Source of the DNA: a virus
Length of the DNA stretch: 37,538 bases
Strand: one strand, 5' to 3'
IMG/VR virus record: IMGVR_UViG_3300034418_008292
Coordinates: 1 to 37,538 of that record
Every line of letters starts with the position of its first letter. The first letter of the stretch is position 1. The translations under genes and the position numbers were made by a program. This document shows positions 2,778 through 37,538 of this stretch, piece by piece. The notes beneath the pieces are model-generated. The model saw only the letters and a list, made by a program, of their open reading frames with translations, was not told the DNA's origin and did not search any database.

Positions 2778-4660
2778 TGGCGTTCACCCAATATACAAAC
2801 CTCGATTTTGAACAAATTAAAGCGTCGTTGCGCGAATATTTGAGGTCAAACTCAAATTTTACTGATTTTGACTTTGAGGGATCAAACTTATCTATTCTTA
2901 TCGACACCTTAGCGTATAATTCGTACATTACGAACTATAATGCTAATATGGTTGCAAATGAAGCGTTTATTGATAGCGCTACTTTGCGTGAAAATGTAAC
3001 TGCATTAGCTAGAAATATTGGTTATGTGCCTTCTTCAAGAAGAGCTTCAACCGCAAATGTGAGTTTTTTCGTTAATTTGGGTACTGGCACTAGTAAGTCT
3101 AGTATAACCCTCAAGGCGGGTCTTGTGGCCATCGGAGACTTTGCAAATACGAACTATACCTTTGCAATTTCTGAAGATGTAACTTCTCCCGTTGTTGATG
3201 GAATCGCATCTTTCACTGTTGATATCAAACAGGGTACATACCTGACAAAAGAATTCATCGTAGACGCCTCACAGTCTAATCAAAGGTTTATTCTTCCAAA
3301 CCCATTTGTTGATACTTCAACCCTTGTAGTAAAGGTAAAAGACACGGCATCTTCTTCCACCGAAAAAGTCTATTCTCAAGTTGATAATATTGTTGGTATC
3401 AAAACTACATCCGAAGTATTCCTGATTCAGGAAGTTCAGGATGAAAAATATGAATTGTTGTTCGGTGATGGTGTAATTGGTAAGAAGTTATCTTCCAGTA
3501 ATGTTGTTAAATCTTCTTATATTGTTTGTGATGGTCCAAATGGTAATGGTGTAGCTAACTTTGCTTTTGCTGGTAAGTTAGTTGACAATGATGGCGCATT
3601 GATTACTACTGGAATTTCGGAAATCACCACAAATCAACCATCAAGAAATGGCGCGGAGATTGAAAACATTAGTACGATCAAGAATTTAGCGCCTAGAGTT
3701 TATGCGTCTCAGTATCGTGCAGTTACCGCAAATGATTATGAGGCTATTATTCCTACAATTTACTCAAATGCAGAAAGTGTAACTGCATATGGCGGTGAAG
3801 AATCAACACCACCTCAGTTTGGTAAGGTATTTGTCTCTATTAAACCCAAAATGGGTCAGTTTGTCTCTGATTTTGATAAAAGACAAATTTTACAGAAACT
3901 AAAGGGTTATTCTGTAGCTGGAATTAGACCAGAACTGATTGATCTTAAGTACTTGTTTGTTGAACTTGACAGTACGGTCTATTATAATTCAAATATGACC
4001 GCCAGTACATCTGACTTAAAAACAAAACTTACGAATTCTCTAAACACTTATTCAAATTCCTCAGATTTGAACAAATTTGGTGGTAGGTTCAAGTATAGTA
4101 AGGCTCAAAAAATTATTGATGATACAGATACTGCAATCACATCAAATATTACGAAAGTAATCATTCGTAGAAATCTTGAAGCAGACACTGCAAACTTTGC
4201 TCAGTATGAATTGTGTTATGGTAACAGGTTCCACAATCGTAGAGAAGGTTATAATATTAAATCTACTGGATTTACGGTAGATGGAATTAGAGGAACCTTG
4301 TACATTGCTGATGCATATATTAGTGAGACAAGAGGTCGTATCTTCCTATTCAGAATGAGTTCAACTGGTGGTGTTGAAGTTGTAAGAAACAATATTGGAA
4401 CTGTTAGATATGACACTGGTGAAATCCTTATAGATACAATAAGGATTTTGTCAACAGTTAAAGATAACAATGTGATTGAAGTTCAAGCCATTCCTGAATC
4501 TAACGATATCATCGGTTTGAGAGATCTCTATGTTCAACTTTCTGTTGCCAATAGTACCATTAGTACAGTTGAAGACTTAATTTCTACAGGTGCTGATACC
4601 TCAGGTACTAGGTTCATCTCCACTTCTAGCTTCTCCAACGGAAAATATATTAGACAATAA
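2777..4660 (+). CDS. gp6: Baseplate wedge subunit gp6 (baseplate J-like)
   Basis: This 627-aa protein is close to the 660 aa of T4 gp6. Its N-terminus (FTQYTNLDFEQIKASLREYL, then FEGSNLSILIDTLAYNSYI) is the characteristic helical wedge region. The segment NEAFIDSATLRENVTALAR (about 63-81) is the best conserved part of the family. The centre has the baseplate J-like core (YRAVTANDYEAI, about 314-325). In T4, gp6 dimers form the ring that joins the six wedges. TAATG overlaps join it to gp25 and gp7. No inserted repeat modules of the kind seen in gp7 are evident, so gp6 appears to have kept its ancestral size. Confidence 0.93.
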   Translation: MAFTQYTNLDFEQIKASLREYLRSNSNFTDFDFEGSNLSILIDTLAYNSYITNYNANMVANEAFIDSATLRENVTALARNIGYVPSSRRASTANVSFFVNLGTGTSKSSITLKAGLVAIGDFANTNYTFAISEDVTSPVVDGIASFTVDIKQGTYLTKEFIVDASQSNQRFILPNPFVDTSTLVVKVKDTASSSTEKVYSQVDNIVGIKTTSEVFLIQEVQDEKYELLFGDGVIGKKLSSSNVVKSSYIVCDGPNGNGVANFAFAGKLVDNDGALITTGISEITTNQPSRNGAEIENISTIKNLAPRVYASQYRAVTANDYEAIIPTIYSNAESVTAYGGEESTPPQFGKVFVSIKPKMGQFVSDFDKRQILQKLKGYSVAGIRPELIDLKYLFVELDSTVYYNSNMTASTSDLKTKLTNSLNTYSNSSDLNKFGGRFKYSKAQKIIDDTDTAITSNITKVIIRRNLEADTANFAQYELCYGNRFHNRREGYNIKSTGFTVDGIRGTLYIADAYISETRGRIFLFRMSSTGGVEVVRNNIGTVRYDTGEILIDTIRILSTVKDNNVIEVQAIPESNDIIGLRDLYVQLSVANSTISTVEDLISTGADTSGTRFISTSSFSNGKYIRQ

Positions 4661-7600
4661 TGATCGACACCGCTTCCAAGAAAGTCCAGATCAATCAGAT
4701 CGTTAGAAGTCAATTACCTTCTTTTGTACAAGAAGAAAGTCCACTATTCATTGATTTCTTAAAACAATACTACCTTGCACAAGAATATCAAGGTGGTCCA
4801 ATTGATATCATTACAAATTTAAATGAGTATCAAAAAGTAGAGACTTTTAGTGGTAACGACAATCTTGTCGGGTTTACTACATGTACTAGTGCGGTAAGTT
4901 CTTATACCGACACCATTAATGTAGTATCTACGACTGGATGGCCAGAAAAATATGGTCTCCTGAAAATTGGTAATGAGATTATCACATATACAGGGAAAAC
5001 TGCGACCTCATTTACTGGATGTGTTCGTGGATTTAGTGGTGTAGAGAGTTTACATAAATCAAATCAACCAGAAAGTCTGGTATTCACAAGTTCTGACGCA
5101 TCTGATCACATTACGTCAGCTAGGGTTCAAAATCTCAGCAATCTTTTTCTGCAAGAGTTTTGGAAGAAGACAAAAGAACAGTTTCTGCCTGGATTTGAGG
5201 ATAGAACCCTCGATAATGCAGTAGACAAAGCTAATTTCTTACGTCAGGCTAAAGATTTTTACGCTTCGAAGGGAACGGATGAAGCCGTAAAAATTCTTTT
5301 CAACGTTCTCTACAATGAGAGATCGGAAGTTATTAAACCAATTGAATATTTGATTGCACCATCTGATGCAGACTATCTAGTAACTGATGATTTAATTGTA
5401 GAAGCCATCAGTGGTGATCCAACAAAGGTTATTGGACAGACCTTGTATCAAACTGATAACGAAGGAGTAACTGGGTCGATATTTAATATTCAGAGACAAC
5501 AGAGAAATAATAAAGAGTATTATCTCATTAGTTTAAGTAAGGGATCTGAAGTTGGTGAGTTTGTTGTAACTGGTTCTTCTACTTTATTGAAAAATGTAGC
5601 CATTGGCGCAACGGTGGTGACCGTAGATTCAACCCTTGGTTTTGGAAACACGGGATCACTGTACGTTGGTGCTGGTCAAACGGTAGGGATTGCTACCTAT
5701 ACAAGTAAATCTTCAAATCAGTTCTTTGGTGTAACAGGTATCACATCTTCTTACTCTGATGGGGAATTTGTAAGAGGATTGAGAACCGTATATGCATTTG
5801 AAGATGGTGATTCCACAAAACCAGTCTACTTTAGACTAACGTCGGTTGTTTCTGGTGTTGATCTGGACGACGTTGGTTATCTGCGTTCAAATGATGTTAT
5901 TGTACCAAAAAAACTAGGTAATGTATCATCATCTAATAACTATAGACTGAATTCTTGGTTACACAACTTAAAAACCAAAACTAAAGTTGCAAAAAGAGTT
6001 GATACTAACAAATCGGTTATTAACACAGTAACTAACAACGTTACTACTGTTAGCCCACACCTTCTTCAGTTGGAGGATTCGGTAACTCTTATTGATGAGA
6101 GTTCTGCAATTCCATCAAATGTTGAGGGAACAGTAAGTCAAGTTATTAGTTCACTTGAATTTAAAATTAATATAACCTCTGGTTCTATTAATACATCTAA
6201 AACATATAGTGTAAGAAGAAATCTAAATTTTGCTTCTAGTAATTCATCATCAAATAGTGTATCTGCATTTTTATCAAATGTTCAAAACACGTACTCCCAT
6301 GTTGATGGACAAAAGTTCTATGTAACTTCTGGCTCTTTGCCATCGTATAGAATTTATGCAACTAATAGAAGAAAAACCTTCCAATCAAGTGATGTAAGTG
6401 GAACTACTATTGGTATTGTTAATCATGGATTCTACAATGGAGATTTGATTAAGTATTCTTCCGAAACTAGTGCGATTGGTGGACTGATATCAGGAACCAC
6501 TTATGTTGTAACTAGAATTGATACAGATACGATTTCTCTTTCGAATAGTTCTTCTGATGCATCTTTCAAGAGATTTATCAGTCTTACTGCAGCTGGCACA
6601 ACCCATTACATCCTTCCACTAGAACTTTCTAATACAAAACTACAATATCAAAATTTCTTAAGAGAGTTCCCTGTAACACCAGAACTTAAAGAATTTGATA
6701 AACCCCTTAAAAATGAAAATATTGGAATGTTCAACAATGGTGTTGAAATTCTTTCAAATAGATCTGGAGATTCGATCTATTACGGATCAGTGGAGAATAT
6801 CGATGTTGAAAATGGTGGATCTGGATATGATGTAAACAATCCACCAAACATTCACATTAGTGATACGGTTGGTTCTGGAGCAACTGCATATGCAGTTGTT
6901 GAAAATGGAACTTTCAAGTCTATTGAGTTGCTTTATGGTGGATATGATATTAAAAGAGTTCCCTCTGTAAAAATTACTGGTGGTAATGGTTCTGGTGCAA
7001 CAGCCTCTGCAAGACTTAGACCACAGAGAAACACAAAAACATTTAATGCAGATATTGATGTTAATACCTCTGGTAATCAAATTATATTCCGATCAAATCA
7101 CCTCTTCTTTAATGGTGAATCTGTAGTTTATAGTAAGGCAGACAACTATGCTTCCGTTGGTGGTCTTGTTAATGGATCACTTTATTATGTTCATAAGGTA
7201 AGTGATACAATTGTTCAATTAATGAACAGATATGATGATGCTTTGGCTGGATCAAATCCAATCAACCTGACAAGTAAGTCTGCTGGTACTAATACACTTA
7301 GAGCCACAACTGAAAGAAATGTAATCGATAAAATTGTAATTGAAAATTCTGGATCTGGATATTCAAACAGAAAAACAACTGTAAATTCTGTAATCTATCC
7401 ACCATCTTCAATTTCTGACGATATTAGAAGCGGTATTAACACATCTGATGACTATGTGTATTTTAGAAACCATGGATTTAAATCTGGAGATCTTGTTGAG
7501 TATTCTTCAAGTGGAAGTGTAATCGAAGGTCTTTCTGCATCGACGAATTATTATGTCCTTAAAGTAGATACAAACAGATTTAGAGTTGCTGACGCTGGTA

Positions 7601-30860: not shown

Positions 30861-31940
30861 ATGATTGGGCAATACTTTTATCACGAGATCCTGAGAAAAA
30901 CCGTCATTGGTTTCGGCACTCTCTTTAACCAAATTGAAATTCGTCACTCTGACAACAATGACAATGTTCAGAGTAAGATGAAAGTGCCATTGGCTTATGG
31001 TCCAATGCAAAAGTTTTTGGCCAAGATTGAACAACAACCAAACCTTCAAGGTAGACCTGCGATTACATTGCCTCGCATGTCGTTTGAGATGACTGGTATC
31101 TCATATGATTCAACAAGAAAAGCCTCAATTACACAGACATTCAAAACTTGCAATACTGGTGAGTTAGGGAACATTAAAAAGGTTTACATGCCTGTTCCAT
31201 ATAACATCAATTTTCAATTGAGCATTGCAACAAAATTGAATGATGACATGTTGCAAATCTTGGAACAAATTCTTCCATATTTTCAACCTGGATTGAATAT
31301 TACTATTAATCTCATTTCATCTATTGGTGAAAAGAGAGATATTCCAATTGTTCTTGAGAACATCAACATGACTGATGATTACGAAGGAAGTTTCGATAAT
31401 CGTCGTGCAATGATTTCAACTCTGTCATTCACCGCTAAAACATATCTGTTTGGTAAGATTGCAGATAACTCTGATGGTCTTATCAAAAGAGTTCAAGTTG
31501 ACATGTTTGATGATACAAACAAAGTTACCGCAAAGAGAGTTCAAAGATACGCTGCAACTCCTAGAGCACTTAAAGACTACAATGATGACGCAACAACGGT
31601 TATCAATAAAGTCTTTACGGTAAATCAAACAAAGATGACAGTCAATGATGCATCAGGACTTAGCGTTGATGATTACATTGTTATTGATAATGAGAATATG
31701 CAAATCCGTTCCATCAGCGGAAACGATGTCACCGTTTACAGAGGAGTTGATGAGACAACCGTATCTGAACACACTTCTGGATCTGTTGTAAATCTCATCA
31801 GTGGCTCGAGAGATGCATCTCTCCCTCTTTCTGGTGACGATGCTCTTATTGTTGCAGGTGATGACTTTGGTTTTAGTGAAATGACTTCATTCTATGAAGA
31901 CTATAAGACCTATTCGCCTTCACAAGGAACTGATGTTTAA
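30861..31940 (+). CDS. gp15: Tail terminator / proximal sheath stabiliser gp15
   Basis: The 359-aa product matches gp15: MIGQYFYHEILRKTVIGFGT, then KMKVPLAYGPMQKFLAKIEQ, LPRMSFEMTGISYDSTRK and DDMLQILEQILPYFQPGLNI, all in the T4 order. RRAMISTLSFTAKTYLFG closes the core. In T4 (272 aa), gp15 caps the finished tube and sheath and binds the neck. Here about residues 250-315 carry an additional module with VIDNENMQIRSISGNDVTVY and RGVDETTVSEHTSGSVV, a type also present in gp7 and the 2512-aa protein. A TCTAAATA sequence 14 nt upstream resembles a late box but is closer than usual. Confidence 0.93.
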   Translation: MIGQYFYHEILRKTVIGFGTLFNQIEIRHSDNNDNVQSKMKVPLAYGPMQKFLAKIEQQPNLQGRPAITLPRMSFEMTGISYDSTRKASITQTFKTCNTGELGNIKKVYMPVPYNINFQLSIATKLNDDMLQILEQILPYFQPGLNITINLISSIGEKRDIPIVLENINMTDDYEGSFDNRRAMISTLSFTAKTYLFGKIADNSDGLIKRVQVDMFDDTNKVTAKRVQRYAATPRALKDYNDDATTVINKVFTVNQTKMTVNDASGLSVDDYIVIDNENMQIRSISGNDVTVYRGVDETTVSEHTSGSVVNLISGSRDASLPLSGDDALIVAGDDFGFSEMTSFYEDYKTYSPSQGTDV

Positions 31941-31955
31941 TTCTGAGGAACAACA

Positions 31956-32375
31956 ATGGCGTTTGATGATATCGGGAAAGCACTTGAAATTCTTAAAGAT
32001 GACGGAGGCAGTGAGATTGCCCCTGTTAGCGGCGATGTACAAGTCCCAAGACAGCGAGAAGAAAAACCAGACCTAAAAAGAGACTACGAATATACAAGAG
32101 GTCAGTTGTATTCGTTGATCGAAAAAGGTCAGGAAGCCATTGATGGAATCATGGAGATCTCGCAAGAACAGGGTTCCGCGAGAGCTTATGAAGTTACTGG
32201 GCAACTAATTAAGAGTGTGGCTGATGCCACAGATAAATTATTAGACCTACAGAAAAAAATGAGAGACATCGAGGATCCTAAAGAAAAAGGACCTAGTAAT
32301 GTCACCAACGCACTTTTTGTAGGATCAACTGCCGAACTTCAAAAGTTACTCAAAAAAGGAAAGTTAGATGACTGA
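31956..32375 (+). CDS. gp16: Small terminase subunit gp16
   Basis: The 139-aa helical protein resembles T4 gp16 in length (about 164 aa) and in pattern: an acidic, flexible N-terminus, then DLKRDYEYTRGQLYSLIEKG and EAIDGIMEISQEQGSARAYE. VTGQLIKSVADATDKLLDLQ and KKMRDIEDP complete the central oligomerising helices. The tail is short and basic (LQKLLKKGKLDD). gp16 recognises DNA and stimulates the gp17 packaging motor. GAGGAACAAC precedes the ATG. The next gene overlaps its 3' end by 8 nt. The large terminase does not follow directly. Confidence 0.87.
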   Translation: MAFDDIGKALEILKDDGGSEIAPVSGDVQVPRQREEKPDLKRDYEYTRGQLYSLIEKGQEAIDGIMEISQEQGSARAYEVTGQLIKSVADATDKLLDLQKKMRDIEDPKEKGPSNVTNALFVGSTAELQKLLKKGKLDD

Positions 32376-32838
32376 AGAAAGGAAAGAAGTTCTGGAAGAA
32401 AAACCAGAAAACAAGAAGAAAGGTTTATTTGGTAAAATAAAATCAGCTGCCGACGACCATGAAGGTCAGTTGGAAGCAATCAGCACTATGGTCAGACTTG
32501 GTATCCTTGTCTGGTCTGGTGGTATTTTGACTCTTGCTTACATTAAACTTCCTGCTGCACTTGGTATTCCTGAGCAGAAACTTGATCCTACTTTCATTGC
32601 ATCTGTTTTCACTGGGGTTCTAGCAACATTTGGTGTTCAGACTGCGAAGAAGTCTGGTGATGGTACAATGAAGATGGGTGGTGCTGGTGGAGTTTCCAAA
32701 GCAGACTTAGAGAAACTGATTGCTGCTGCAGCACAGACAGCACCTGCTCAAACCATTCGTATTGAGCAAGCACCTCTTCAGATTGCAACTGCTGCCCCTA
32801 AGAAGGACGGCGAACCACCTGTAATGCCTACGGTCTAA
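32368..32838 (+). CDS. Two-helix membrane protein, holin candidate (156 aa)
   Basis: Residues 1-40 are charged and cytoplasmic-like. Two hydrophobic segments follow at about 42-62 (VRLGILVWSGGILTLAYI) and 75-92 (TFIASVFTGVLATFGVQT), with a short loop holding LGIPEQKLDP. The C-terminal 60 residues are Ala/Gly-rich (KADLEKLIAAAAQTAPAQT) and end acidic/proline-rich. I recall related proteins near gp16 in cyanophages, without a proven role. Size and topology would fit a class II-like holin or an inner-membrane anchor. No lysis enzyme lies beside it. It overlaps gp16 by 8 nt. Confidence 0.75.
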   Translation: MTEERKEVLEEKPENKKKGLFGKIKSAADDHEGQLEAISTMVRLGILVWSGGILTLAYIKLPAALGIPEQKLDPTFIASVFTGVLATFGVQTAKKSGDGTMKMGGAGGVSKADLEKLIAAAAQTAPAQTIRIEQAPLQIATAAPKKDGEPPVMPTV

Positions 32839-32842
32839 TACC

Positions 32843-33007
32843 ATGATGTTTTTAACGATGTTTATTATTGGTCATGTGGAAATCGGCAATGGATACTGCC
32901 GCACAGATATTATGCTTCATAATGAACCAATCGCAATGGAGTATCCTTGTGAATATTATTCTGAGCTGCATGACCTAGATAATAAGATCAAACTACTTGG
33001 TCAATAA
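32843..33007 (+). CDS. 54-aa small protein with hydrophobic start
   Basis: ATG at 32843 lies 4 nt after the stop of the preceding gene and opens 54 codons ending TAA at 33005-33007. The product starts MMFLTMFIIGHVEIGNGYCR and continues with TDIMLHNEPIAMEYPCEYYS, then a charged helix LHDLDNKIKLLGQ. The first ten residues are hydrophobic, but the segment is short for a membrane span. C19 and C36 could pair if exported. Tight spacing to the genes on both sides (1 nt to the next ATG) supports translation. The family is not recognised. Confidence 0.62.
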   Translation: MMFLTMFIIGHVEIGNGYCRTDIMLHNEPIAMEYPCEYYSELHDLDNKIKLLGQ

Positions 33008-33008
33008 C

Positions 33009-33254
33009 ATGCAAAAACTAATTAATCTTATCGCTTTGTTGTCAGGATTGACATCTGCATCCATTATTGGTGGTGCTGCATATTTGTATTTCCAAAAAGA
33101 TGTATTAATTGAAGAAGCAAGAGAAAAAGCCGTAGAAGTAGTTACTGAAAATGTAACTAAAGCACTACCTGGATTGATTAAATCTGCAATGCCAGAAATG
33201 CCTAAAGTAACTGGTCCTGCAATTCCAACTAAAACAGGACTTCCTATCCCCTAA
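33009..33254 (+). CDS. Single-span membrane protein, unknown function (81 aa)
   Basis: The start is taken at ATG 33009, one base after the previous stop; an in-frame TTG at 32997 would add four residues and overlap that gene. The product has an N-terminal hydrophobic helix (LINLIALLSGLTSASIIGGA, about 4-23, extending to about 28), then an amphipathic charged helix (FQKDVLIEEAREKAVEVVTE) and a Pro-rich tail (PKVTGPAIPTKTGLPIP). This is a membrane anchor with a short soluble arm. It lies in a run of small membrane genes and is separated by 5 nt from the next. Function unknown. Confidence 0.72.
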   Translation: MQKLINLIALLSGLTSASIIGGAAYLYFQKDVLIEEAREKAVEVVTENVTKALPGLIKSAMPEMPKVTGPAIPTKTGLPIP

Positions 33255-33259
33255 GGAAA

Positions 33260-33871
33260 ATGGCATGGAATTTAAAAGTTCAAAATGAACAATCCGCCAA
33301 ACAAGTGAATAATAGTGAACAACGCAAACCAATGTTCAAGTGGGCAGCCCTTAGTGTTGCCACCGTATTTGGTGTTGCACATCTCGGCATTCTTGGACAT
33401 CTACTGAATAGACAACAACTTCCCATCTTCAATTTACCAGTTGGTAATTATACATCATATCAAGTGGATGCTAGAAAAGATGGATATCGTATTCAATATC
33501 GTTCTAATGATCCCTTAGTAATGGGAACTTCTAAAGTTATCGATAAAAAGAACGGGTTCTTTGGTATTGGTGGAAAGACCAATATCATTCAACAACAAGA
33601 ATACACTATGGATGGAGCAAAACATCTCCAAGGAGGTGAGCTGGGAAAGTTGACTGCCAAAAAGATAGAGTGTATCAAGGCGGAAGGTGGTGGCGAAAAT
33701 GCAGGGAGAATGGTGGGCGCTAGTGTAGGTGCCGCAGCCGCTCCTTGGTTCACTGGTATTCCTTATGTTGGTTGGCTTGCTGCTGGGTGGGTAGCAATGT
33801 TCGCACAAGATAAGGGGGCCGATGTCGGTGGCGATATCGCCACAATGGTTAAAGATTGCGAGGACACTTAA
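33260..33871 (+). CDS. Membrane-anchored protein, unknown function (203 aa)
   Basis: The start follows AAGGAAA at a good distance. Residues 1-26 are polar. A membrane helix lies at about 27-48 (FKWAALSVATVFGVAHLGIL). A predicted extracytoplasmic beta domain follows at 60-140 (VGNYTSYQVDARKDGYRIQY, then KKNGFFGIGGKTNIIQQQ). A second Ala/Gly-rich hydrophobic stretch at about 151-182 (MVGASVGAAAAPWFTG, VGWLAAGWVAMFA) could be a glycine-zipper-like membrane segment. C138 and C200 are the only cysteines. It overlaps the next gene by one base (TAATG). I do not recognise a characterised family. A pore or envelope role is conceivable from the glycine-zipper pattern but unproven. Confidence 0.75.
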   Translation: MAWNLKVQNEQSAKQVNNSEQRKPMFKWAALSVATVFGVAHLGILGHLLNRQQLPIFNLPVGNYTSYQVDARKDGYRIQYRSNDPLVMGTSKVIDKKNGFFGIGGKTNIIQQQEYTMDGAKHLQGGELGKLTAKKIECIKAEGGGENAGRMVGASVGAAAAPWFTGIPYVGWLAAGWVAMFAQDKGADVGGDIATMVKDCEDT

Positions 33872-34533
33872 TGCCCGAAGTTCCTGATATTGGGGTTCGT
33901 GATATCAACATCCGTGAAATCAAACCGAATCCCATTTTTAATCTAGATACACCTAGAGTTCTGGTTCCTACTCCACCAATTACCACATATCTCCAGAAAC
34001 CCATTGTCTCTTATCCTGGATGTGTGGAAAATGTTGATGCGGTTGAAGATGACCAGAAGATAATCCAGTGTGATGGTCGAATTCCAAGTTATGAACCTTT
34101 GAATTTTGAACCACAACAATTCACACCTACCCGTCCAGCAGGTCTGCCAAAAAACAAAGAAGAAAAACAAAAAGAGGTAATCCAACAACTACCGCAGGCG
34201 CTCCCACCATCCACAGCATCTGTGACCAAAGAGGAGGCTCCCCCGACCGTAGAACCTGAGATACCCTGGACACAAAAGTATCTCCCAGAACCTGCTGCGG
34301 TGACAACAACTGCATCAATTGCACTGATTGCGACAACATCTGCACTTCTTGCAAAACCCTTAGCTGATTTATTATTGAAGTTAGTTAAACCTACCGTGAA
34401 GAAGGTTGTGAAGAAGGTGTCGAAGATGCGGGGGAAGCCGGAAGTCGTACTGTCCCTCCAAGAGCGGAGGCGCGAGCAGAGTGAGACGAACCATGCGAAG
34501 GCGATGATGAGGAAACTGTTGAAGGGGAAATAG
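33871..34533 (+). CDS. Proline-rich, probably membrane-anchored protein, unknown function (220 aa)
   Basis: The start is ATG 33871 inside the preceding stop (TAATG); an upstream TTG at 33856 is rejected. Residues 1-140 are proline-rich and extended (IFNLDTPRVLVPTPPITTYL, then PQALPPSTASV), with C51 and C67 able to form a small disulphide loop. A hydrophobic segment at about 143-170 (TTTASIALIATTSALLAKPL) is followed by a very basic tail (KPTVKKVVKKVSKMRGKP, ending MMRKLLKGK). The last 143 nt overlap a minus-strand gene in the convergent direction and are visibly more G+C-rich than the surroundings. Architecture resembles a periplasm-spanning, TonB-like arm turned around, but no homology is claimed. 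Confidence 0.72.
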   Translation: MPEVPDIGVRDINIREIKPNPIFNLDTPRVLVPTPPITTYLQKPIVSYPGCVENVDAVEDDQKIIQCDGRIPSYEPLNFEPQQFTPTRPAGLPKNKEEKQKEVIQQLPQALPPSTASVTKEEAPPTVEPEIPWTQKYLPEPAAVTTTASIALIATTSALLAKPLADLLLKLVKPTVKKVVKKVSKMRGKPEVVLSLQERRREQSETNHAKAMMRKLLKGK

Positions 34534-35158
34534 TATGTCTGTGTGAAGGAACGGTATCCACATTTTGCACTACAACATCAGCACAAACAGCATAATACGG
34601 ACTTTTGGGATGGAAACTTATACCAGATTTTTTCATTTCGCCACATTTTGAAAGTCTGGTAAGTTCAAACTCAAGTCTGCGATTGGCCAGAATTTGTTCC
34701 CTTAGTGCGTTGTGATTTTCAGCTGCCTTCTTACATAAGTCTTGTTGTTTCTTGTCTAGTGGTTTACTCCATGTGGCACTGACACCGACTGAGAGGTTGT
34801 AGTTATCCTTTTGACCCGTTCTGGTGGGTACATGGTAAAGAATGTTGCCAGGATTATCCAAAGACCCATCATCATTGAGGTCACGCATATCATATACAGG
34901 ATCCATGTAATACGGTTCATATGGTTTTTGATATGATCCACTACCTGTTACAAAGGGGGTTACGTTAAGAGTCGGGCCCTGACAACTGATTCCGTCCCCG
35001 TACTGGTTTGTTATGTACGGACCTTGAAGAACTTGAATTGCTTGGTTTGTGACTGAGCCTGTACTGTTCGCAATCGGTGATGCTGTCGCTGATACTCCCC
35101 CTACCGTCTCTGCAAGAGCAGATGCAGGGGTCACGAAGACACCGAGAGCAAGGCTCAA
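34391..35158 (-). CDS. Secreted four-cysteine protein, unknown function (255 aa, TTG start)
   Basis: The reading frame is open far upstream, but that part overlaps the previous gene antiphase and is poor in structure. The first usable start next to the hydrophobic signal is TTG at 35158, 2 nt after the upstream stop; ATA at 35164 is the other choice. The signal-like start SLALGVFVTPASALA (cleavage after A16) leads to ETVGGVSATASP. Then come a Tyr/Gly region (QGPYITNQYGDGISCQG), an aspartate-rich loop (DPVYDMRDLNDDGSLDNPG), a helix (QQDLCKKAAENHNALREQIL) and HPKSPYYAVC. C59, C142, C172 and C192 could form two disulphides after export. The last 47 residues are Ser/Pro-rich and are overprinted on the plus-strand gene. 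Function not recognised. Confidence 0.65.
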   Translation of the reverse strand: MSLALGVFVTPASALAETVGGVSATASPIANSTGSVTNQAIQVLQGPYITNQYGDGISCQGPTLNVTPFVTGSGSYQKPYEPYYMDPVYDMRDLNDDGSLDNPGNILYHVPTRTGQKDNYNLSVGVSATWSKPLDKKQQDLCKKAAENHNALREQILANRRLEFELTRLSKCGEMKKSGISFHPKSPYYAVCADVVVQNVDTVPSHRHTISPSTVSSSSPSHGSSHSARASALGGTVRLPASPASSTPSSQPSSR

Positions 35159-35160
35159 AG

Positions 35161-35634
35161 TTATTCTGTGAAGACACTTGTTGTATCTGTGACCGAACGA
35201 ATTTCTGTCGTTCGTTGGATTATCGTTTGATTCGTCATGCCAGGTCCTTGATAAGACTCTGTGAACTGAAAGGATGCTCCTGGCGTTGAAATTGTGTAAT
35301 TCCCCTTTGTTCCTAGATTTAGAGAACTTGTTGACGAAATAACCGATCCACTTACTCCTCCTAGCGGATTCGTGGTTACTGTATTTGTGTTGGCTGATGG
35401 ACTCAGTGTCGATCCACTGTAGTTTACGTTGGTGCCCGTTACTGTGTATTGCCATCCTGTTGAATAATCTATTGAGTTAATCGTTTCAGTCACTGTAGAG
35501 GTCGTCTCCGTGTGACTCGTCATAGAACCCTGCGTGAAGTTGGGTACTAATGGGACTGCTGATGCGGATTGAACAGTCCCATGTACAACTCCAAGGATTA
35601 CACCAAGACAAATCGCCTCATGCAATCTAGACAT
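35161..35634 (-). CDS. Secreted Ser/Thr-rich beta protein, unknown function (157 aa)
   Basis: The N-terminus RLHEAICLGVILGVVHGTVQ followed by SASA is a signal peptide (cleavage after about A26). The mature part is rich in Ser, Thr, Asn and Gly and strand-like (TETTSTVTETINSIDYSTGW, then QYTVTGTNVNYSGSTLS). GASFQFTESYQGPGM (about 120-134) resembles AYTFSESFIEG in the neighbouring upstream protein, which suggests duplication and divergence. There are no cysteines in the mature protein. It begins 2 nt after the stop of that neighbour and ends 2 nt before the next, so the three genes form one minus-strand operon. Function is unknown; a surface or virion-associated beta protein is likely. Confidence 0.78.
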   Translation of the reverse strand: MSRLHEAICLGVILGVVHGTVQSASAVPLVPNFTQGSMTSHTETTSTVTETINSIDYSTGWQYTVTGTNVNYSGSTLSPSANTNTVTTNPLGGVSGSVISSTSSLNLGTKGNYTISTPGASFQFTESYQGPGMTNQTIIQRTTEIRSVTDTTSVFTE

Positions 35635-35636
35635 CT

Positions 35637-36125
35637 CTATTTAACCGTAATCTCACTAACAAATTGTCCTGTGGCTGAAGTACCAGCACCACCAGCAGTC
35701 AACGACATCGTGCCAGCAGAATTGACAGTACCAGCGAGAGACCCAGCCACGCCGCCGGCAGTCGTGGTGACAGTTCCAAATGAAGGAAGGGACCCAATGA
35801 CACCACTTGACACGGTTGTACCCGAAGGCACTGCGTCTCCTTCAATGAATGATTCACTGAATGTATAGGCACTACCGTCTGTTGTGAGACCATATGCAGT
35901 TGGTGTGTATCCAACCGCAGTTCCTGATGTGAGGGATCCAAGCCCTCCTACAGTTGATGGGGTAATGTTGTTTCCAGAAACCGAATATGTGCTGCCAATA
36001 CGGGTTGCTTGAGAGGCTGCAGCATCAACGGTCAGTTGAACACTGGTTGACAACTTGTGAGAAATATCGGCATGTGCGGGTGCCGCCACCAAAATCATTC
36101 CAAGGGCAAACAATGCTCTTTTCAT
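35637..36125 (-). CDS. Secreted Gly/Ser/Thr-rich beta protein, unknown function (162 aa)
   Basis: A classical signal peptide, MKRALFALGMILVAAPAHA, ends at residue 19. The mature protein (DISHKLSTSVQLTVDAAASQ, then IGSTYSVSGNNITPSTVGGL) is low-complexity and strand-rich, with SAYTFSESFIEGDAVPSG in the middle. The glycine/alanine-rich C-terminus (TAGGVAGSLAGTVNSAGTMS) resembles self-associating or fibre-type sequence. It is the first gene of the minus-strand operon, directly behind the divergent promoter region. It shares its central motif order with the next gene. I do not recognise a named family. Export to the periplasm or outside of the host seems firm; the role is not. Confidence 0.8.
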   Translation of the reverse strand: MKRALFALGMILVAAPAHADISHKLSTSVQLTVDAAASQATRIGSTYSVSGNNITPSTVGGLGSLTSGTAVGYTPTAYGLTTDGSAYTFSESFIEGDAVPSGTTVSSGVIGSLPSFGTVTTTAGGVAGSLAGTVNSAGTMSLTAGGAGTSATGQFVSEITVK

Positions 36126-36138
36126 CTAAGAAGACCAC

Positions 36139-36167
36139 ATTAGACTGCAAGTATTTAGTTTTCTCAA
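36139..36167 (-). promoter_or_regulatory. sigma70-like promoter for the secreted-protein operon
   Basis: Reading the minus strand, TTGAGA (36167-36162) and TCTAAT (36144-36139) are separated by 17 bp, each one mismatch from consensus. The -10 lies 13 nt before the ATG at 36125. A late-like ACTAAATA (36159-36152) sits in the spacer and ends 26 nt before the same ATG, so early, late or dual control is possible. Confidence 0.45.
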
Positions 36168-36177
36168 CTTCTAAATA
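36152..36177. repeat. Inverted repeat of two late-like boxes in the divergent region
   Basis: TATTTAG (36152-36158) and CTAAATA (36171-36177) are perfect inverted copies separated by 12 bp. Read outward, each is a CTAAATA variant of the T4-type late box, one facing the minus-strand operon and one facing the gene at 36200 (ending 22 nt before its ATG). The 74-bp gap between the two genes holds no other evident element. Confidence 0.5.
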
Positions 36178-36199: not shown

Positions 36200-37538
36200 A
36201 TGGGTTGGTCGGCAAAATACAAAAAGTCAATCAACTGTGATAGCCCAAAAGGGTTTTCTCAAAGAGCTCATTGTCAAGGCCGCAAGAAAAAAATGAAAGA
36301 GGCGAAAGACCACGAAGTCGCCATGGCTCAGTCCCAATTGAAAAATATTGAGGACAACGTGAGAAAACTGAAGAAGAAACTTGGATCCAAGGAAAAGGAT
36401 ATTCCTGCTTGGATGCAAGATAAAATCAGTAAGACCCATCACAATATGTCTGCGGTCGGTGAATATCATGCCGAAGAAGGTCTCCGCGATTGGTTTGGTA
36501 AGTCCAAATCAAAGGACGGTAAGAAAGGTTGGGTCAACGTGGTGACTGGTGATTCTTGTGCCAGTGACAAACCAGGTGAAGGTATTCCAAAGTGTGTCTC
36601 TTCTGCAAAGAGAGCCAGTATGTCTAAAAAAGAAAGACTTGCTGCGGCTGCCGCAAAGAGACGTGAAGATCCTGGTCAACAGAAGAAGTCTGGTGCAGCC
36701 GCACCAACCATGGTGAAGACTGACAGAAAGACGAAGAAAGAAGAGATCGAACTCCTTGATGCCTACGGCAACACTTTTGCGACTATTCAAGACATTATCA
36801 AACCAGAACCCATGCAAGCAACCAACTGCCCCAGATGCGGACAAAACCCTTGTGTCTGTTCTCCTGAGTATGACATTGAGGCGATGACTGAAGCAAAGGA
36901 CAAGAAAGGTAAAGGAAGTGGTGAAAAAGACGCTTGTTACCATAAGGTTAAGTCTCGTTATTCTGTATGGCCTTCTGCTTATGCCTCAGGTGCTCTGGTT
37001 AAGTGTCGTAAGAAAGGTGCTGCCAACTGGGGAAACAAGAAAGAAGGATATGAGTTTGAGTTCGACAACGATTACCATAAGAGCCTAGTTGAGAAGTGTT
37101 GGGTTGGTTATACCCAGAAGGGTATGAAGAAGAAGGGAGACAAGATGGTTCCCAACTGTGTTCCCGTAAAAGAACAGGTTGATGCATCTAAGTATGGAAA
37201 GACACCAGAACAGTTGTTACAAGGAATTGTAGATAGAAAGAAACTTGGTGGTCAGGTTGTTAAGAGTGGTCTCAAGAATGCCAAGGAAGAAGTTGAGATC
37301 CAAGAGAAGGTTCAAAGATATAACGAACTGGGTCAAACCGTTGCAGTTACCCTGAGATTTAGAGGTAAGATCTTCTATCTCCAACTATTCTTCCCAACCG
37401 TCAAGTTCCCCAACCGTAAGGAAGTTGAGGCTCAGGTTCAAAAGATCTATCCAGATGCAGTTGTCATGATGGCAGTTCCTGCAACTGTTGATCCAACCAA
37501 ACCAACCATTAGAGTTGCTGAGGGTGCTCAATACAAAG
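36200..37538 (+). CDS. Cys/Lys-rich modular phage protein, partial (runs off the window)
   Basis: ATG 36200 opens 446 codons to the end of the window with no stop. The protein is a chain of short basic modules: INCDSPKGFSQRAHCQGRKK (11-30), WVNVVTGDSCASDKPGEGIP (111-130) with KCVSS, a zinc-ribbon-like NCPRCGQNPCVCSPEY (209-224), DACYHKVKSRYSVWPSAYAS (244-263) with KCRKKGAANWG, and CWVGYTQKGMKKKGDKMVPN (300-319) with C320. Residues 365-446 form a more ordered alpha/beta part (VAVTLRFRGKIFYLQLFFPT). I recall such modules (DUF5872-like) in marine phage proteins of unknown role. Internal virion or head-associated DNA-binding protein is plausible from the charge. It faces away from the secreted-protein operon across a 74-bp divergent promoter region. 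Confidence 0.78.
   Translation, partial: MGWSAKYKKSINCDSPKGFSQRAHCQGRKKKMKEAKDHEVAMAQSQLKNIEDNVRKLKKKLGSKEKDIPAWMQDKISKTHHNMSAVGEYHAEEGLRDWFGKSKSKDGKKGWVNVVTGDSCASDKPGEGIPKCVSSAKRASMSKKERLAAAAAKRREDPGQQKKSGAAAPTMVKTDRKTKKEEIELLDAYGNTFATIQDIIKPEPMQATNCPRCGQNPCVCSPEYDIEAMTEAKDKKGKGSGEKDACYHKVKSRYSVWPSAYASGALVKCRKKGAANWGNKKEGYEFEFDNDYHKSLVEKCWVGYTQKGMKKKGDKMVPNCVPVKEQVDASKYGKTPEQLLQGIVDRKKLGGQVVKSGLKNAKEEVEIQEKVQRYNELGQTVAVTLRFRGKIFYLQLFFPTVKFPNRKEVEAQVQKIYPDAVVMMAVPATVDPTKPTIRVAEGAQYK

Follow-up and report, generated by a model that had tools for sequence, protein, structure and literature searches.

The DNA analysed here (the window) is a 37,538-base IMG/VR contig, IMGVR_UViG_3300034418_008292, which derives from a T4-like cyanophage; its nearest records are Synechococcus myoviruses, for example S-CAM9 and S-8S56. 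The subject of this report is a cassette of eight genes at 32368-36125, on the 3' side of gp16, where five plus-strand genes are followed by three minus-strand genes and then by a divergent gene that is cut at the contig end (Table 1). Named by the T4-GC numbers of the P-SSM4 and S-SM1 records, the plus-strand genes are, in order, GC218, a gene for a 54-amino-acid (aa) protein, GC414, GC219 and GC234, and the minus-strand genes are GC237, GC236 and GC235. All eight open reading frames (ORFs) lie where a first-pass annotation of the sequence had placed them, and each matched a conserved phage family in a PHROG profile search (E from 2.9e-115 to 8.4e-30); therefore, none of the eight is a spurious ORF.

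Table 1. The cassette and its promoter-like motif, followed by the neighbouring genes (nt, nucleotides; membrane topologies and signal peptides are predictions).
Feature	Positions	Strand	Description	Family match
GC218	32368..32838	+	156 aa; predicted two-helix inner-membrane protein, proposed holin-like; overlaps gp16 end	PF20048 DUF6450, E 5e-34; phrog_2714
54-aa gene	32843..33007	+	accessory protein; two Cys; weakly hydrophobic start	phrog_17717, E 8.4e-30
GC414 ('plasmid stability' protein)	33009..33254	+	81 aa; N-terminal anchor, presumed periplasmic tail	phrog_568, E 1.3e-35
GC219	33260..33871	+	203 aa; anchor at 31-49, presumed periplasmic domain; glycine-rich C-terminal half	phrog_605, E 5.8e-66
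GC234	33871..34533	+	220 aa; Pro-rich N-terminal region with two Cys; helix at about 142-168; basic C-terminal tail	phrog_570, E 4.9e-48
GC235 ('gp165' family)	34391..35158	-	255 aa from TTG; signal peptide; Ser/Pro-rich tail antisense to GC234	phrog_848, E 2.9e-115
GC236	35161..35634	-	157 aa; signal peptide; Ser/Thr-rich beta protein	PF19847 DUF6322, E 2.1e-35; phrog_650
GC237 ('OMP1')	35637..36125	-	162 aa; signal peptide; GC236 paralogue	phrog_564, E 6.5e-50
CTAAATA motif	36152..36158	-	late-promoter-like; 27-33 nt upstream of GC237	
gp16	31956..32375	+	small terminase; left neighbour, outside cassette	phrog_445, E 1.2e-49
phrog_727 gene	36200..37537	+	right neighbour, outside cassette; divergent; cut by window end	phrog_727, E 4.2e-72

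A conserved cyanophage cassette

By its sequence matches, the cassette is the conserved gene set of T4-like cyanophages that comprises T4-GC 218, 219, 234, 235, 236 and 237 together with a 'plasmid stability' gene. This set is recognised by clustered homologues of GC218, GC219, GC234, GC235 and GC237, often accompanied by the 'plasmid stability' gene, and the PHROG matches place them in the window. The gene order also equals that in P-SSM4, S-SM1 and Syn9, in which the genes carry T4-GC tags or belong to the same families. In 2010, Sullivan et al. (PMC3037559) reported this cluster from 15 of 16 cyanophages, named S-PM2 as the phage without it, presented it as a functionally clustered and possibly mobile group of hypothetical genes, and proposed that GC414 confers mobility. 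The novelty implied by the first-pass annotation is unsupported: the cluster itself has been known since 2010, and it is the lysis reading considered below that is new. The window contributes a new copy, which has the same families, order and strand switch as the 2010 cassette and differs from it in adjoining gp16 and in carrying the extra 54-aa gene. The main text of the 2010 paper (PMC3037559) made no link to T7-like phages, lysis or the distribution of endolysins.

The cassette had also been described as inserted after gp16, which is true of its position in the window; insertion itself is unsupported. The same arrangement is found in S-CAM9, and among the 50 IMG/VR loci whose contigs extend far enough to tell, gp16 lies next to the cassette in 7. 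Elsewhere, the cassette lies between regA and hsp20 (P-SSM4, S-SM1 and Syn9) or near psbA (S-SM2). With a variable position, and a site shared with S-CAM9, recent insertion after gp16 cannot stand as a general account and was rejected; the gp16 site is one among several, and the term 'inserted' should therefore be dropped.

Eighty IMG/VR loci were found using GC235 alone, and a neighbour entered the count only if the contig extended far enough to include it. GC234 was present, adjacent to GC235, in 71 of 71 loci, GC236 in 68 of 68 and GC237 in 50 of 50, the opposite of the scattered, independent occurrence that would have counted against a joint function. GC414 (57/61) and GC218 (51/53) were nearly as constant, whereas GC219 is optional (31/58; its tblastn matches fall in 365 phage records) and the 54-aa gene is present in just 12 of 192 loci. 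The internal order of the block is mostly kept across loci. In a genome scan the cassette families appeared to be limited to cyanophages; matches in bacterial genomes fell on contigs that are, or appear to be, of phage origin, in metagenome-assembled, single-amplified and draft genomes. As the scan returned only phage or phage-like contigs, a host origin of the cassette was rejected. In one flavobacterial genome, that of Nonlabens xiamenensis 1Q3, a 188-kb contig (L180) bears a cyanophage cassette and is apparently cyanophage contamination of the assembly. In S-H38 (MW117965.1, 165680-166309), GC235 is in two pieces with a TGA within the first, which reflects a genuine lesion or else an error of sequencing.

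Predicted topology and predicted timing of expression

Topologies were read from a simple hydropathy scan (KD denotes the hydropathy value), which agrees with the earlier assignment of a two-helix protein, three further membrane-anchored proteins and three opposite-strand proteins with signal peptides. GC218 has two hydrophobic segments, at about residues 41-59 and 72-90; the predicted anchor of GC414 lies at residues 4-22 (KD 1.73), and GC234 has a single hydrophobic helix near its C-terminus. The 54-aa protein is present, but its start, previously called hydrophobic, is only weakly so (maximum KD 1.15). The GenBank record of P-SSP7, annotated with TMHMM and SignalP, agrees for the orthologues of GC234 ('1 TM'), GC218 ('2 TM') and GC236 ('SignalP').

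In the hydropathy scan, GC235, GC236 and GC237 have signal-peptide-like N-termini that end in A-x-A-type sites. Translation of GC235 probably begins at 35158, with a TTG codon located at the 3' end of GC236; this makes the protein shorter than the 354-aa ORF, and four Cys are invariant in GC235 alignments. GC236 and GC237 are related to one another, as a search with the GC237 profile picked up the GC236 ORF at 7e-10. The 3' ends of GC234 and GC235, which lie on opposite strands, overlap by 143 bases (34391-34533); overlaps of about 80-110 bases are found in Syn9, S-CAM9 and SynMITS9220M01.

The operon of secreted proteins is predicted to be expressed late. The late promoter published for cyanophages reads NATAAATA (PMC2984593), and a TAAATA-type motif, often near position -30, occurs no more than 90 nt upstream of GC237 in 53 of 63 T4-like loci, compared with 3.2% of 90-nt background blocks. 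At the other end of the cassette, GC218 overlaps the late gene gp16 in the window.

A second CTAAATA motif, at 36171-36177 on the plus strand, stands back to back with that of GC237 and is 23-29 nt upstream of the phrog_727 gene. The product of this gene is strongly basic and Cys-rich, and its S-CREM2 relatives ORF137 and ORF160 (gp137 and gp160) were detected in purified virions; it is therefore probably virion-associated and not part of the cassette.

Core genes in T7-like cyanophages and the distribution of endolysins

Homologues of GC235 were also found in T7-like cyanophages. Hidden Markov models (HMMs) trained solely on T4-like loci, when searched against 83 T7-like loci, matched GC235 in all 83 (best E 3.7e-23), GC236 in 75 (1.1e-10) and GC218 in 69 (8.4e-29), with zero matches for the GC414, GC219 and GC237 models. 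Because the GC234 model matched only 3 of the 83, GC234 was assigned in T7-like phages mainly from iterative search and position. The usual order is GC234-GC218-GC236/GC235, with a tail fibre gene upstream (36/44) and a terminase gene, TerS or TerL, downstream (40/40); in P-SSP7, genes 042-045 form a GC234-GC218-GC236-GC235 block between gp17 and gp19. P-SSP7 and its T7-like relatives thus share the core families with the cassette of the window, and differ in having them all on one strand between tail fibre and terminase and in being without GC414, GC219 and GC237. The cassette core is also carried by MED4-184 and the 208-kb S-SKS1, which are neither T4-like nor T7-like.

T7 places its holin, 17.5, and Rz, 18.5, between the tail fibre and large terminase genes. 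The block of T7-like cyanophages occupies this holin slot, and there, too, a small membrane protein is found; to our knowledge, the exported cassette proteins have no T7 counterpart. A 52-aa, partly hydrophobic phrog_2738 protein (CYIG_58; 6507-6665 of locus L087) lies between GC235 and TerS in T7-like cyanophages. The phrog_2738 profile matched 85 ORFs, and the protein could be another membrane-acting part of the T7-like block.

The phages tested mostly carry either GC235 or a free C39-peptidase/lysozyme endolysin, not both. A free C39 peptidase was found in 1 of the 22 GC235-bearing records searched (DSL-LC02) and in 3 of 4 records without GC235 (Fisher p = 0.006, a value that is only a guide, as the phages compared are a related, non-random sample and the test ignores relatedness). 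The peptidase is present and GC235 absent in S-PM2, S-SZBM1, S-CREM2, ACG-2014f and S-SRM01; GC235 was likewise found in 0 of 15 IMG/VR C39 contigs of 65-175 kb, which are mostly fragments, so that absence counts for less there. The C39 peptidase matches an endolysin PHROG and adjoins a 'putative lysin' in S-PM2 and lysin or lysozyme genes in S-CREM2, S-CAM7 and S-SRM01; in ACG-2014f the peptidase lies inside one annotated 405-aa protein. This C39-peptidase/lysozyme cassette (S-PM2p153-154; phrog_10051 and phrog_3617) is found within the same phage family and tends to occur where the GC235 cassette is absent, but it encodes recognisable peptidoglycan hydrolases and the GC235 cassette encodes none. 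DUF6450, the GC218 domain, was not found in S-PM2, S-CRM01 or S-SZBM1, and gave one sub-threshold match in S-CREM2.

Two further observations concern C39 or lysozyme phages. S-CREM2 gp131 (3460-3771 of locus L094) is a distant GC218-like protein, encoded just before the neck adaptor gene and away from the S-CREM2 lysozyme cluster. In S-CAM7 (NC_031927.1), a C39/lysin phage, a weak GC235 match with two stops at 31560-31802 is possibly a decayed remnant.

Free Phage_lysozyme, VanY, Amidase_2 and M15_3 domains were essentially absent from the cassette phages tested. With the exception of DSL-LC02, the lysozyme domains of cassette phages sit in 925-935-aa frames and are probably virion-associated. 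Free VanY, Amidase_2 and Peptidase_M15_3 endolysins were rejected as candidates, as none was found in 19 records and M15_3 fragments occurred only within the 925-935-aa frames.

A possible role in host lysis

The near-invariable co-occurrence of the cassette genes, their recurrence as a block in unrelated phage types, and signal peptides that speak against cytoplasmic virion assembly support a joint role in the host envelope, as the first-pass annotation had suggested. Among the functions it had listed, lysis is the best supported, because of the position of the genes, their predicted timing and their near-exclusive distribution with the endolysin cassette. We judge the chances to be about even that the cassette is a late-expressed host-envelope module which brings about, or assists, the lysis of picocyanobacteria. 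In such a module, the small two-helix protein GC218 would accumulate in the inner membrane and, in the manner of a holin, open it or collapse its potential; GC234, GC414 and GC219 would be anchored in the inner membrane with their presumed periplasmic parts; and GC235, GC236 and GC237, once exported by Sec, would breach or weaken the envelope from the periplasm or the outer membrane. The analysis establishes the homologies, gene order, co-occurrence, predicted topologies, promoter motif, T7-slot position and near-exclusivity with the endolysin cassette, from which late expression, membrane locations and each stage of the lysis mechanism are inferred. It is a more tentative, and on balance doubtful, proposition that unrelated marine cyanophage types share a lysis module free of a standard endolysin and spanin, whose holin-like protein and envelope-breaching, Sec-exported GC235-237 are evolutionarily interchangeable with the C39-peptidase/lysozyme cassette.

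Several results weigh against lysis, among them the relatedness of the phages in the endolysin comparison. The block of T7-like cyanophages resembles the T7 lysis slot (17.5 holin, 18.5/18.7 Rz/Rz1) in position, but no cassette protein matched a holin, spanin or endolysin family in Pfam or PHROGs: GC218 gave DUF6450 alone in Pfam and families of unknown function in PHROGs, and scans of the same databases found no peptidoglycan-hydrolase domain in the cassette. Nor does it encode a lipoprotein, as a lipobox Cys of the kind expected in a spanin outer-membrane lipoprotein was sought, by the hydropathy scan and in the sequences, in GC235, GC236 and GC237 and found in none. Across the five families tested, a free endolysin was mostly not recognisable in cassette phages, and the module would therefore need an unseen muralytic enzyme or the virion lysozymes. 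DSL-LC02 and DSL-LC03 carry both the GC235 and the C39 cassette, and S-CRM01 showed neither. The exact late motif was not found before GC237 in Syn9, P-SSM4, S-SM1 or S-TIM4, and fold searches of the GC235 and GC236 models against the PDB gave no significant match. Because the known lysis families are not matched, we say that the cassette may work like a lysis module and do not assign it to such a family. As to a class II-type holin, a small protein expected to have two transmembrane helices and both termini in the cytoplasm, GC218 offers predicted helices, namely its two hydrophobic segments and the P-SSP7 note.

The AlphaFold2 models of GC235 and GC236 are of moderate confidence (pLDDT about 70; pTM 0.38 and 0.43, respectively). 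The GC235 model consists of a beta region and, after it, a 42-residue helix (pLDDT 70); that of GC236 is a small beta part with a predicted strand of about 24 residues on either side. Solved structures searched by sequence with the GC235 and GC236 profiles returned nothing below E 0.1. Fold matches to a flagellar L-ring protein and to beta-pore toxins had E values of 0.2 or worse, with no VIA-align Z of 5 or more; compared with beta-pore formers (aerolysin-like and others), GC236 reached a best Foldseek E of 0.18 and a Z of 3.9 for the lysenin pore, which, like the others, is below a meaningful level. Matches in BFVD at E <0.001 were cyanophage, uncultured-phage or unnamed entries. These results yield no functional conclusion for either protein.

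The main rival to lysis, which we consider unlikely, is modification of the envelope without lysis: the exported proteins, anchored via the inner-membrane proteins, would coat or alter the outer surface or a receptor, and so block superinfection or keep progeny from adsorbing to debris. A set of three exported and four membrane proteins suits exclusion or a surface role as well as it suits lysis, and families apparently limited to cyanophages are what a host-envelope target would lead one to expect. However, phage exclusion genes are usually early (T4 imm and sp), so a predicted late promoter and the T7 holin slot suit exclusion less well, and the near-exclusivity with the endolysin cassette is left unexplained.

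It is improbable that the cassette serves maintenance, its proteins stabilising the host envelope or Sec/outer-membrane function in a long infection, for example by offsetting halted host protein synthesis. Its wide occurrence in several marine cyanophage types and very high co-occurrence would fit such a role, but the promoter is of late type, and there is no similarity to host envelope proteins among the bacterial matches, which are phage or phage-like contigs.

We give little credence to the idea that one or more of the products are minor virion components. The genes of the window do adjoin neck and terminase genes and have a late-promoter motif; yet signal peptides would send GC235-237 away from cytoplasmic assembly, and the genomic position is not conserved. 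The virion protein lists of S-SZBM1 and S-CREM2 are uninformative on GC235 and GC237, because both phages lack them, and S-SM1 product names were rejected as a sign of virion detection, since the virion-detected GC969 is also named hypothetical. The slimmest chance falls to a mobile cassette without a single function, carried by its plasmid-stability-like gene, for although genome positions differ and GC414 was proposed to confer mobility (PMC3037559), this 81-aa anchored protein lacks a plasmid-stability domain in Pfam, is absent from T7-like cassettes, and lies in a block whose order is largely kept.

Lysins are recognisable in S-PM2 and the remaining C39 phages, whereas in most cassette phages the families tested revealed no free endolysin. 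Genetic manipulation is already workable in cyanophages, S-TIP37 among them (PMC8776855). If the cassette is a lysis apparatus, this would explain a conserved block of genes of unknown function in T4-like and T7-like cyanophages together, and would name the genes to remove.

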